Shown here: piece after piece, positions 13,139 to 61,651 of the stretch
Position numbering within the stretch: position 1 is the stretch's first letter
Layout: the number at the start of each line of letters is the position of its first letter
NCBI RefSeq assembly: GCF_002192255.1
Contig: NZ_CP021768.1
Coordinates: 3,552,001-3,616,000 of the forward strand
Reading direction: 5' to 3'
Source of the DNA: Stenotrophomonas sp. WZN-1
GTDB lineage: Bacteria; Pseudomonadota; Gammaproteobacteria; Xanthomonadales; Xanthomonadaceae
Length of the DNA: 64,000 bases
Position numbers and translations under genes: made by a program
Notes under the pieces: generated by a model
Told to the model about the DNA's origin: nothing
The model's database searches: none
The model's input: only the letters and a program-made list of their open reading frames with translations

Positions 13139-13302
13139 GGGCAACTCTTTGGCTCAGGGACGGGATGCCGGGGTACGGCAGGCGGCCATTGTATCGGGTG
13201 CGGCTGGCGGGAGGGTCGATGCCTGCGGCAGGCAGAGGCGCAGGGCAACAGCAACGGCAACGGCCAAAGCCAAAACGCTGGCGCTTCGTGGTGCTGTGAA
13301 TG

Positions 13303-13408
13303 GGCCGGGGTGGTGTGGGCTGGCAGGGGACGCCGTAAACCCATCCATGGGGGCTTGGCCGCGGCATCCATGCCGCGGACACCCCTGCCAGCCCACACCG
13401 CCCCGGCC
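13303..13408 (+). repeat. cloverleaf inverted-repeat element, copy A
   Basis: 106-bp element. Outer arms (13303-13329 and 13382-13408) are complementary over 27 bp with one mismatch. Inside are two hairpins: CCCATCCATGGG at 13340-13351 and CCGCGGCATCCATGCCGCGG at 13359-13378. The core between the arms begins ACGCCGTAAACCC. Copies B to E at 13604, 19893, 20162 and 61380 share this plan. Orientation + is defined by the CATCCATG reading of the larger hairpin. It lies 164 bp upstream of the pgk start codon and forms a convergent pair with copy B. Confidence 0.85.
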
Positions 13409-13479
13409 TCGACAGGTTCATGAGGCAGAGCGGATGGCAAAGGCACAAGCAGTGTGTGGTGTCGGATGAAGAACGAAGC

Positions 13480-13516
13480 GGTCAGATCCGTTTTCCTACG
13501 GAAAACGGATCTGGCC
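13480..13516. repeat. REP-like hairpin of the GGTCAGATCC class
   Basis: Arms GGTCAGATCCGTTTTCC and GGAAAACGGATCTGGCC flank a 3-base loop; the outermost pairs are imperfect. The words recur at 29082 and 9557. It sits in the spacer between element copies A and B. Confidence 0.7.
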
Positions 13517-13603
13517 CCGAGGGTCGTCGAGCGAAGCGACCCGCTTCCGCTCTTGCTCTTCTTATTTCTCTTCCGTGGGTGGACGCACACGGAAACTGTC
13601 AGA

Positions 13604-13708
13604 GGCCGGGCGGGTGGGCTGGGCAGGGGTATCCGCGCCATGGATGGCGCGGCTAAGCCTACAGGGACGTACTTGCGGCGTCCCCCTGCCCAGCCCACCC
13701 GCCCGGCC
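13604..13708 (-). repeat. cloverleaf inverted-repeat element, copy B
   Basis: 105-bp element with perfect 26-bp outer arms (13604-13629 and 13683-13708). In minus-strand reading the core is ACGCCGCAAGTACGTCCCTG and on, with a TAC/GTA first hairpin and CCGCGCCATCCATGGCGCGG as the second. Its outer stem resembles that of copy A (shared GGCCGGG, GTGGGCTGG and CAGGGG words), but it points the other way, 195 bp away. A minor short ORF crosses the element without evidence of coding. Confidence 0.85.
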
Positions 13709-13765
13709 AGGCGCGGCTTTTGCTTTACGCGACCACCCACAAGGGGCTGCGCCGTTCGCCGGAAC

Positions 13766-15142
13766 CTATTCCGAAGGCGCCGGCTTCTGCCGAAGCAGGC
13801 TGACCGCCAGGCCACCAACAACCAACACACCCAGCCCCAGCAACGCCCACAGCAGCCACGACTTCCAGTCGTGCTGCGGTTTCAGTGCCGACTCGCCGGC
13901 CAGTGGCTCCGGGCTGCCTTCCAGACGAGCCAGCGTCGGCTGCCACGACGGATCATTGCGCTGCCGCAGCTCCTCGATCAGCACCCCGATCGGCGCGTCC
14001 GTGCGGCGCGCGGTCGCGCTGCCCACCGCCAGTGCGTAGGGCGCTGCACCCTGGCTCAGGAACACCAGCACTTCCGGCTGGTAACCCAGGCGCAGCGTCG
14101 GCGCGGTGGCGGTTTCCGCCGGATTCGCCACCAGCTTCCAATAGCGGTCGCGGTGCACGCCGCCCAGCGGCTGCGCCGCCGACTGCTGGCGCTGGCCCTG
14201 CGTGCCCTGTTGCACCTGGTAGGCGATCCACGGCGCGCTGCGGCGCTGCCACTCCGCGCCCTCGTCATCGCGACTGAACAGCGTCCATTGCACCAGGCTG
14301 TTGTCGGTGCTGGCCACATCGGCGCGCGCCACCGGGAACCGGCCATCCATCTCGAAGGTGTACTCGCCCTTGCCTTTCGACGTTGGCTCCAGCGACAGCC
14401 ATTCCCACGGCACGGTCGCCGGCGCTGGCGGCAGTTCCGCCAGTACGCCGCGCAGGGTCGGCAGGCGCGAATCACCCTGCGCCAGGATGCGCAGGTAGCG
14501 TGCAGTGCCGTCCACCTGCAGGCGGCGCTGCAGCAGGCGCTTGCCCGCGCGCTGCAGATCCACCAGGGGCACATCGCGGCCAATCGAGCGCCAATGCTGC
14601 AGGTCGTCGCTCGCGTCCAGCTGCACCTGTGCCTGCAGTGGCTGGCCGCTGTCGGCCCAGTCCAGCACCAGCGCTGCCAACGGCTGCTGGTCGAGCATGC
14701 TGGCGTCGATCAACCAACCGCCGTGCCCGTTCGCCACCGCCCCGCCACTCACCCGTGCCTCGACCCGGCGTACCCGGCCATCGGCATCGCGCTCGGTCAG
14801 CAGCTGCAGGTCGTTGCGCTGGGCATCGGGCAGCGGCGGCAACACGAACCACGGCAGTTCACGCTGCACCGGCGGTTGCGCCAGCGGCTGGTCCGGTGCC
14901 AGCAGTGCCGACGGCAACAGCTGGCTGGCCGCATTGAACACCTGCAGGTCGCTGAGGTCGGGGCTCACGGCACGGCGGTAGATCGCCGGCTCCAGCACGA
15001 TGCGGTAAGCACCGGACTGCGCGCTGGACAACGTCAGCGGCCATTGCTCGGCATACTGCGTGCGGTAATCGGCCGCCTGCACCACGACGGCGGCCAGCAT
15101 GCCGAACATCGCCGGCAGCAGCGCCCTGCTCCACTTCCTCAT
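13766..15142 (-). CDS. DUF3999 family membrane-anchored protein
   Basis: 458 residues starting at the ATG at 15142 (MRKWSRALLPAMFGMLAAVVVQAADYRTQYAEQWPL), a Sec signal cut after VQA. The long periplasmic part is beta-rich with the DUF3999 hallmarks YRIVLEPAIYRRAVSPDLSDLQVFNAASQLLPSALL and WKLVANPAETATAPTLRLGYQPEVLVFLSQG. One transmembrane helix (WLLWALLGLGVLVVGGLAVSLL, about 430-451) and a short tail end it. Its start overlaps the stop of the DUF2339 gene by four bases. The two domains of unknown function often occur as a pair, and probably form one membrane complex. Confidence 0.88.
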   Translation of the reverse strand: MRKWSRALLPAMFGMLAAVVVQAADYRTQYAEQWPLTLSSAQSGAYRIVLEPAIYRRAVSPDLSDLQVFNAASQLLPSALLAPDQPLAQPPVQRELPWFVLPPLPDAQRNDLQLLTERDADGRVRRVEARVSGGAVANGHGGWLIDASMLDQQPLAALVLDWADSGQPLQAQVQLDASDDLQHWRSIGRDVPLVDLQRAGKRLLQRRLQVDGTARYLRILAQGDSRLPTLRGVLAELPPAPATVPWEWLSLEPTSKGKGEYTFEMDGRFPVARADVASTDNSLVQWTLFSRDDEGAEWQRRSAPWIAYQVQQGTQGQRQQSAAQPLGGVHRDRYWKLVANPAETATAPTLRLGYQPEVLVFLSQGAAPYALAVGSATARRTDAPIGVLIEELRQRNDPSWQPTLARLEGSPEPLAGESALKPQHDWKSWLLWALLGLGVLVVGGLAVSLLRQKPAPSE

Positions 15143-19863: not shown

Positions 19864-19892
19864 GTGCCTGGGACTGAAGCGGTTCCGGAGCT

Positions 19893-20000
19893 GGGGCAAG
19901 GCGGGGAGCGGAGCCGGGACACGCCGTAAACCCATCCCTGGGGGCTCGATGGCGCCATCCATGGCGCCAACGGTCCCGGCTCCGCTCCCCGCCTTGCCCC
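19893..20000 (+). repeat. cloverleaf inverted-repeat element, copy C
   Basis: 108-bp element with outer arms of about 27 bp and no mismatch (first word GGGGCAAGGCGGGGAGCGG). The core begins ACGCCGTAAACCC as in copy A. Hairpin 1 is CCCATCCCTGGG (one A replaced by C in the apex); hairpin 2 is TGGCGCCATCCATGGCGCCA. The outer stem differs from that of copies A and B, yet its two arms match each other. Forms a convergent pair with copy D, 161 bp away. Confidence 0.85.
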
Positions 20001-20161
20001 TTCCCATCACCGCGTGCGTACCAGCTCAAGCAAAGGCAAGGGCAGAGCCTGTACATCCGAGGCGTAATGATTGCCTGCAATTGCAGAAGGCGGATTTTGA
20101 TCCTGCATTTGTTCTTGATGTTGCCTTTGACGTTTGCATCCGCCTCCGCGGCCATGTTGGA

Positions 20162-20277
20162 TGGGGGCTGCAGGGGCAGGCGCTGCGGGACCGTCTGCGG
20201 CATGGATGCCGCGGCCGAGCTTACAGGGACGTACTTGCAGCGTGTCCCGCAGCGCCTGCCCCTGCAGCCAGCCCCCA
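20162..20277 (-). repeat. cloverleaf inverted-repeat element, copy D
   Basis: 116-bp element, core in minus reading ACGCTGCAAGTACGTCCCTG and on, like copy B. Hairpin 2 reads CCGCGGCATCCATGCCGCAG with one non-pairing position. Outer arms are complementary over 25 bp from GCTGCAGGGGCAGGCGC, with a 4-base GCTG insertion in one arm. It ends 52 bp before the start codon of the S1/P1 nuclease gene, so it may be in the 5' untranslated region. Confidence 0.82.
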
Positions 20278-20329
20278 GCAGACAGGAACGCGCCGCTCTT
20301 CAATCCACCTACCCCGCTAGAATGGGCGC

Positions 20330-26808: not shown

Positions 26809-26872
26809 AAAAGGGGACGGAGGGGTTTAAGTCGCATGTGCACAAACGACTTAATCCCCTCCGTCCCCTTTT
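26809..26872. repeat. REP-like hairpin of the GGGGACGGAGGGG class
   Basis: Arms AAAAGGGGACGGAGGGG...GTCG and the complement CGAC...CCCCTCCGTCCCCTTTT, 26 bp each with one imperfect pair, around a 12-base loop. It begins directly after the stop codon of the CoA-transferase gene and ends in a T run, so it may act as a terminator. Confidence 0.8.
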
Positions 26873-61236: not shown

Positions 61237-61379
61237 CGTTGCCGTCTTCAGATCGGCAACGAAGTGTGGACCGGGATGATGACCGTTGCAAGTACGGGGA
61301 TTGGGGTTCGGCAGGGCTGCGCCCTGCACCCGCAGAAGCCGGAGCAACGGCAAGAGCAAAAGCTGGCTATCCGTGGGAT

Positions 61380-61481
61380 GGCGGGGTGGGTCCGATGGCG
61401 GGGGACGGCGTGAATACATCCATGTAGCCTCGGTCGCGCCATCCATGGCGCTCACGCCCCCGCCACCGGACCCACCCCGCC
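61380..61481 (+). repeat. cloverleaf inverted-repeat element, copy E
   Basis: 102-bp element with 26-bp outer arms (GGCGGGGTGGGTCCGATGGC; one mismatch). Hairpin 1 is TACATCCATGTA (61415-61426); hairpin 2 is GCGCCATCCATGGCGC (61436-61451). The stems differ from those of copies A to D but remain paired, while the CATCCATG apex is kept. It is the only unpaired copy in the window. It lies between the nucleoside hydrolase and recG genes. Confidence 0.85.
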
Positions 61482-61523
61482 TTCGACAATTTCCCGCGGT
61501 CTGTCGGAACGGCGTTCTGCTCT

Positions 61524-61642
61524 GGTAGGTGTCGACCTTGGTCGACACATCCACGGATTGATCGAAAAGGCTCTCTGTAGAGTCGAGCCATGCTCGACTC
61601 ACGCGCGCAGCGTGGATGTGTGGACCAAGGACCACACCCACC
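61524..61642. repeat. nested SMAG cluster
   Basis: Outer units GGTAGGTGTCGACCTTGG and, in inverted form, CCAAGGACCACACCCACC, share CACATCCACG and CGTGGATGTG words and pair with some mismatch. Inside lies a GTAGAGTCGAGC/GCTCGACTC unit (GTAG at 61577). It is an arrangement of one REP within a pair of others. Confidence 0.75.
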
Positions 61643-61651
61643 AAGGCAGCA

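Follow-up and report, generated by a model that had tools for sequence, protein, structure and literature searches.

A cloverleaf-shaped inverted repeat at 13303..13408 of a 64,000-nucleotide stretch of the Stenotrophomonas sp. WZN-1 genome (the window, by which we mean the whole stretch that was analyzed) raises the questions of what kind of element it is, which of its strands matters and whether it is already known. We call the strand bearing the core as the preliminary description gave it the written strand; the proposed RNA is the complementary strand. A covariance model, R1, was built from the five copies in the window, which comprise the following features.

13303..13408, core written on + strand, proposed folded RNA on - strand: copy A, R1 score 92.3 bits
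13303-13329 and 13382-13408: arms of copy A, 27 bp with one T.G mismatch, enclosing the core at 13330-13381
13342..13349: apex of hairpin 1 of copy A, CATCCATG on the written strand and CATGGATG on the - strand, the latter fitting CANGGANG
13365..13372: apex of hairpin 2 of copy A, likewise CATCCATG on the written strand and CATGGATG on the - strand, fitting CANGGANG
13604..13708, core 13630-13681 on - strand, proposed RNA on + strand: copy B, partner of A, R1 score 84.2 bits
13639-13646 and 13662-13669, + strand (proposed RNA): apices of copy B, CATGGATG and CAGGGACG
13206..13767, approximate ends: composite A/B unit, from the query span of dispersed matches (~257-818) and a 36-pair consensus
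19893..20000, core 19921-19972 on + strand, proposed RNA on - strand: copy C, with perfect 28-bp arms
about 20168..20267, core 20192-20243 on - strand, proposed RNA on + strand: copy D, partner of C
20201-20208 and 20224-20231, + strand (proposed RNA): apices of copy D, CATGGATG and CAGGGACG
19864..20307, approximate ends: composite C/D unit, at whose ends homology is lost in several same-genus genomes (query 364 and 809-814)
61377..61484, core 61405-61456 on + strand, proposed RNA on - strand: copy E, without a partner, R1 score 86.1 bits

Coordinates and pairing bear out the 27-bp outer arms and the two same-apex hairpins first noticed in copy A, and the same plan recurs at four further sites (B at 13604, C at 19893, D at about 20168 and E at 61377). 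The preliminary description missed the convergent pairing, the likely strand and the CANGGANG apices. The arms are less regular than the cores in detail: copy B has one extra G beside one arm, the 24-bp arms of copy D continue outward past a 4-nt slip, and those of copy E contain two mismatches in 28. By eye, a neighboring gene starts downstream of each of copies A, D and E, which are on its sense strand; for A this gene is pgk-like. No terminator-like T tract or terminator match and no sigma-70-type promoter match was found at the window elements. A separate 32-bp near-perfect inverted repeat with zero gap between its arms lies at 26809-26872 and is unrelated to the cloverleaf family.

All five copies share a gapless 52-nt core, which forms two hairpins on a three-way junction inside complementary arms of 24-28 bp; the arm sequences are not common to the five. 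The core begins with AC, followed by a 3-bp stem with a 5-nt bulge and a 4-bp hairpin, a single T, and a hairpin of 2 bp plus 8 bp, after which the outer arms close. Compensating differences are visible already among the five window cores, and folding of the copies as single-stranded DNA gave z-scores of -7.4 to -13.2, with none of 200 shuffles reaching the observed energy. We measured covariation on 53 matches (51 distinct) from many genomes. Standard pairs fill 97.9% of the pair cells and 19 of the 23 base pairs show changes on both sides, in an alignment that was fitted to the model's structure, so that these counts lean toward that structure, with little effect expected because the cores are nearly gap-free. 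The covariation score of 0.620 is far above chance, given 0.179 for shuffled alignments (0/500 reach the observed value) and 0.05-0.10 for slid versions. Together, the folding z-scores, the gapless cores and the covariation support the three-way junction that had been proposed for this DNA or its transcript. Between genera, the loop sequences, the bulge and the junction bases are conserved. The arms vary widely between copies yet are 78-100% Watson-Crick paired per genome, with median lengths of 26-31 bp; gap-free measurement gave just 4-8 bp for a few copies.

A multi-copy family had been suspected from the window, and R1 found it. When the best 150 of 3,648 first-look candidates in the Stenotrophomonas sp. 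WZN-1 genome were scored, 140 matched at E<=0.1 (136 below 0.001). Ninety-eight of these fall into 49 pairs and 42 are single; in all 49 pairs the written cores are convergent, as they are in A+B and C+D. Core starts lie 218-404 bp apart in 47 pairs and 1,014 and 1,120 bp apart in the other two, which enclose host-like open reading frames, one KDPG-aldolase-like by eye. The consensus of 36 pairs shows conserved sequence also outside the arms, and BLAST matches to the A/B region at dispersed sites cover as much as ~560 bp. A home-made gene finder applied to 34 pairs called the flanking genes co-directional at 20, divergent at 6 and convergent at 5, placed one pair inside an open reading frame and left two unplaced.

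The distribution is patchy. At E<=1e-6, matches occur in 44 of the 274 genomes from the window's class, its own included, with 19 candidates scored per genome, so that absences in this set are soft. Five of 40 genomes of the bacterial family match, with 125, 123, 11, 7 and 1 copies, and the other 35 have none (132 candidates scored each). Genome G249 has at least 150 matches, and G083 and G239 have 106 and 136 at E<=1e-6. One of 72,556 plasmid records matched (from Marinobacter, by one of two core queries), and one core query found none among 50,697 phage records and none in E. coli records. An exact-pattern contig scan, with a strict pattern, returned six stretches. Several arrangements elsewhere are worth recording. 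Tandem heads 68-90 nt apart on one strand occur at G348:C2:334987-335118 and similar places in another genus of the family. At L060:4474-6172, a convergent pair 1.6 kb apart surrounds open reading frames that resemble CcdAB toxin-antitoxin and AbrB-type proteins by eye. At L061:4926-6071, a XerC-like tyrosine recombinase frame ends just outside a pair 2 kb apart, and the pair encloses a pilus-type ATPase frame (both by eye).

The conserved apices point to a possible partner. On the complementary strand, they read CATGGATG, CAGGGATG and the like, and both hairpins fit CANGGANG in 169 of 184 copies, a count restricted to 64-nt copies that drops most of G249 and includes 42 copies from G083 and 77 from the WZN-1 genome. 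GGA is present at the two apices in 181 and 179 of the 184, and the most variable positions are the two N. CANGGANG is the spelling of the high-affinity loop motif of RsmA/CsrA, a term also used in published papers. The two GGA motifs lie 23 nt apart within the 52-nt core, a spacing at which a single RsmA/CsrA dimer could bind both at once. In the available portions of the two source papers, SELEX yielded the site RUACARGGAUGU, mostly in six-base loops, with dual-site bridging at spacings of 10-63 nt and an optimum above 18 (PMC7652899), and the high-affinity form is a hexaloop ANGGAX directly on a stem (PMC4005645). The apices of the repeat agree with the CsrA/RsmA site as defined in those portions, a GGA hexaloop on a stem (ANGGAX / RUACARGGAUGU). 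The same excerpts describe GGA hexaloops that bind CsrA/RsmA in the CsrB/RsmX/Y/Z sponge RNAs, and comparable binding is predicted for the repeat; those RNAs are single genes with many sites each, whereas the repeat offers two sites per copy at ~140 dispersed copies. Of the 44 carrier genomes, 40 have a csrA gene, as do 194 of the 230 remaining genomes; when the comparison is confined to genomes of at least 90% completeness and no more than 5% contamination, the figures are 35/36 and 176/200, a non-significant difference (one-sided p 0.076). Three of the four carriers without csrA are 67-88% complete, and the fourth (G196) is 98% complete.

Two Rfam families overlap the repeat, although Rfam searches at the gathering cut-off found nothing in the 64-kb window. 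TwoAYGGAY (RF01731), which Rfam types as cis-regulatory, matches the WZN-1 genome nine times at E<=0.01, and all nine matches lie on repeat copies, on the opposite strand. The best of these scores 46.9 bits and is the sole match over the cut-off of 43, so that 1 of the 140 R1 matches passes it; copies A-D gave no match at E<=1. Among 11 carriers, RF01731 exceeds its cut-off in two: G186 has 12 matches, 11 of them over the cut-off, G205, G089 and G250 have fewer, and the other six have none at E<=0.01. None of 14 control genomes matched. Reciprocally, an independent model of the repeat, R2, matches 10 of 10 RF01731-derived loci, all from carriers and on the opposite strand. Like the repeat, TwoAYGGAY combines a poorly conserved outer stem with a pair of hairpins whose loops are AYGGAY-type; hairpin 1 of the repeat is a short stem with a 5-nt bulge, whereas the RF01731 model has a longer hairpin. 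In the accessible part of PMC4333381, the external stem of TwoAYGGAY is called poorly conserved and CsrA binding is predicted for it, a prediction for which priority belongs to those authors; the element also has a table row in the part of PMC2864571 available to us.

The consensus of the second relative, Ysr224 (RF02770), contains the written-strand core. Its model matches the written strand of copies A-D (22.7-33.2 bits) and of other loci, the best score being 47 bits (L070), below the cut-off of 70. Ysr224 lies on the opposite strand to RF01731, and its Rfam structure is a different one. Table 3 of PMC9029176 gives it as a Yersinia sRNA, and that 2022 survey, in the portion at hand, ranks it among the 20 most prevalent bacterial sRNAs with every instance counted, a prevalence that copies of the repeat may explain. 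Among the papers listed, all of them open-access, titles and abstract openings reported no dispersed multi-copy TwoAYGGAY repeat, and listed papers that contain short words of the core looked, by title, like primer matches. The suggestion that the element was something undescribed therefore stands in part: it overlaps RF01731 and contains the Ysr224 core, and its high-copy dispersed form, its convergent composite and the replacement of its hairpins at fixed sites are new. The early view that it is not a SMAG unit is supported by its long arms and branched head. REP/REPIN sequences (SMAG, GTAG and CGTC classes) resemble the repeat as intergenic palindromes that often form inverted pairs; in the excerpt of PMC3733652 they have stems of 5-13 bp (8-9 bp in the CGTC class) and a GTAG/CGTC tag, whereas the repeat has median arms of 26-31 bp, a branched head and conserved loops. 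Without a short tagged stem of 5-13 bp, the repeat was rejected as a member of that group. Matches to microRNA families were discarded as chance matches to a long hairpin. We take T-shaped, AAV-type termini to be only an analogy to the cloverleaf.

On sequence grounds, we think it probable that the repeat is a dispersed RsmA/CsrA-binding RNA domain of the TwoAYGGAY kind, encoded on the complementary strand. The complementary strand would be transcribed and would fold into a variable long stem, a three-way junction and two hairpins, each presenting a hexaloop of the form CA-N-GGA-N-G. RsmA/CsrA would bind both hairpins, one dimer possibly bridging the two GGA motifs. The copies might then act in cis, as with A, D and E upstream of gene starts, or jointly as a dispersed titrator of RsmA. 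Recombination between copies, together with some mobilizing activity, would have spread and homogenized them.

The strongest alternative is a purely DNA-level mobile repeat of the MITE or REPIN type, in which the folded single-stranded head is the substrate of a transposase that recognizes the CANGGANG apex, and there is no RNA role. High copy number, presence in 5 of 40 genomes of the family, convergent pairs that make a unit of ~450-560 bp, and the scarcity of copies inside genes (4/131 in 20 other genomes and 3/46 in G083) would all fit such an element, and G.T and A.G mismatches, which bear on the strand argument below, are also tolerated in single-stranded DNA. Y1 transposases (PF01797) are commoner in carriers (36/44) than in other genomes (138/230; Fisher p 0.006). 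PF01797 had no match in 8 of the 44 carriers, among them G239, which holds 136 copies, so a resident Y1 enzyme is unnecessary for persistence. By eye, no transposase was recognized among the open reading frames between four wide pairs; the element is near absent from plasmids and phages, and neither A/B nor C/D yielded a resolvable target duplication. A DNA-level repeat also leaves unexplained why both loops fit an established protein-binding site in which two positions are free. We regard it as unlikely, though the next most likely after the RsmA/CsrA reading.

A second alternative keeps an RNA role and assigns it to the written strand, whose loops would be UCCA/UCCC, as an mRNA element such as an intercistronic stabilizer or partial terminator, as Ysr224 suggests. 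The Ysr224 model does match that strand, and gene context in two genomes is in keeping with it. G083 has 106 matches, of which 46 copies in 23 stretches were examined; 39 of the 46 are flanked on both sides by genes co-directional with the written strand, which makes the proposed RNA strand antisense there. Orientation follows GC skew at 42 of the 46 copies and the upstream gene at 41, so that transcription and replication are inseparable as causes of this orientation. Twenty other genomes supplied 131 copies: 116 were assigned a place between genes, 4 fell inside genes and 11 could not be assigned. G249 leans the same way as G083 (30 co-directional versus 12, of 59 placed copies), and a T run follows some of its copies on the written strand. 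One reading of such orientations is that copies may be weeded out where their RNA would form an RsmA site within a message. Taken together, the remaining genomes show no orientation bias (18 versus 16 co-directional, with 17 copies between convergent genes, 10 of them in G239, and 6 between divergent genes), the pairs of the WZN-1 genome are symmetric, and the window copies lack a terminator-like T tract.

Mismatches within the stems bear on the same choice. Across 21 genomes, arm mismatches read on the written strand number 250 A.C, 63 G.T, 113 T.C and 27 A.G, under an extension rule that treats all mismatch types alike. The frequent types become G.U and A.G on the complementary strand, where they would be tolerated if that strand folds. 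Because copies within a genome are related and pooled counts are non-independent, the count by genome is the fair one: 14 of the 21 have more A.C, three have more G.T and four have neither (14 versus 3, two-sided p 0.013). Core stems outside the loop-closing pairs have 9 G.T and 4 A.C, so the asymmetry of the arms is absent there and the balance leans slightly toward the written strand. The loop-closing pairs have 25 G.T and no A.C; in a hexaloop these bases would belong to the loop, yet these counts do not help the complementary-strand reading. The arm mismatches and the lack of orientation bias in the remaining genomes taken together make a written-strand mRNA element improbable, clearly more so than a mobile DNA repeat.

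The behavior of the repeat at fixed sites speaks for the exchange between copies that is part of the RsmA/CsrA reading. We followed the A/B locus in 61 same-genus genomes, from which 30 loci were taken, 25 with both flanks. A recognizable copy A is present at 14 of the 25; among these, hairpin 2 has five different stems and hairpin 1 comes in three types, while the flanks (200 bases, largely coding) are 94-99% identical to the window on the left and 82-94% on the right. At C/D, both arms of a copy switch together among two or three alternatives, and the changes at C are independent of those at D (L210, L211). Locus L105 is a mosaic of two types, one contributing the left half and the other the right, with a breakpoint in the core and arm mismatches left behind. 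The simplest reading is that hairpins are replaced by recombination or gene conversion between copies or strains. The unit or one copy is missing or deleted, for example, at A/B in L121, L124, L127 and L129, and at C/D in L217, L218, L221, L222, L225, L234 and L235. No clean target-site duplication was resolved at either locus, nor was a clean pre-insertion site, a fold-back origin of the arms having been considered; the short alleles are diverged or deletion-like. Hairpin replacement, mosaics and widely differing arms that stay paired would also arise in a non-functional, hyper-recombining palindrome whose complementarity comes from self-templated repair (quasipalindrome correction) and gene conversion, but pairing repair alone would not preserve the loops, bulge and junction bases that are kept between genera, and we consider this explanation very improbable.

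Other small repeats accompany the element. Two unrelated inserts of ~80 bp lie inside hairpins at the A/B and C/D loci, one in hairpin 1 of L113, L122, L219 and L225 and the other in hairpin 2 of L122 and L220, as if the loops were a target for other small repeats. Inserts of ~48 nt within a hairpin occur in G083 and G249 (L151:11106-11217, L147:4844-4955, L175:3649-3761 and L178:15483-15594), and those of the G083 copies bear a CATGGATG apex of their own. In the window, the A/B spacer holds a different palindrome at 13484-13516 (cagatccgttttcc...ggaaaacggatctg), which is present in some relatives and missing from others. Further palindromic repeats lie beside copy E at 61517-61649 and in the A/B spacers of L103, L105, L107, L109, L114, L115 and L123; we take these to be GTAG-type, SMAG-like units.

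Together, these results identify a partly known family, whose high-copy dispersed form, convergent composite and hairpin replacement at fixed sites are new. The repeat is best described as a variant of the TwoAYGGAY/Ysr224 RNA that is dispersed, recombines and reaches high copy number; binding of RsmA/CsrA is its best-supported reading. It joins two Rfam entries that lie on opposite strands, suggests that survey counts of Ysr224 may be counts of a repeat, and provides a natural example of hairpins swapped as units at fixed sites. More tentatively, the copies could be RsmA/CsrA docking domains at more than 100 intergenic sites per genome that swap heads by recombination and serve jointly as a distributed sponge or singly as plug-in control sites, such that related genera and species would differ by a whole layer of RsmA control. 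If binding is real, some genomes confront a global post-transcriptional regulator with hundreds of encoded sites, while in their neighbors we found none, and the rewiring of a regulon by repeats would become directly testable.
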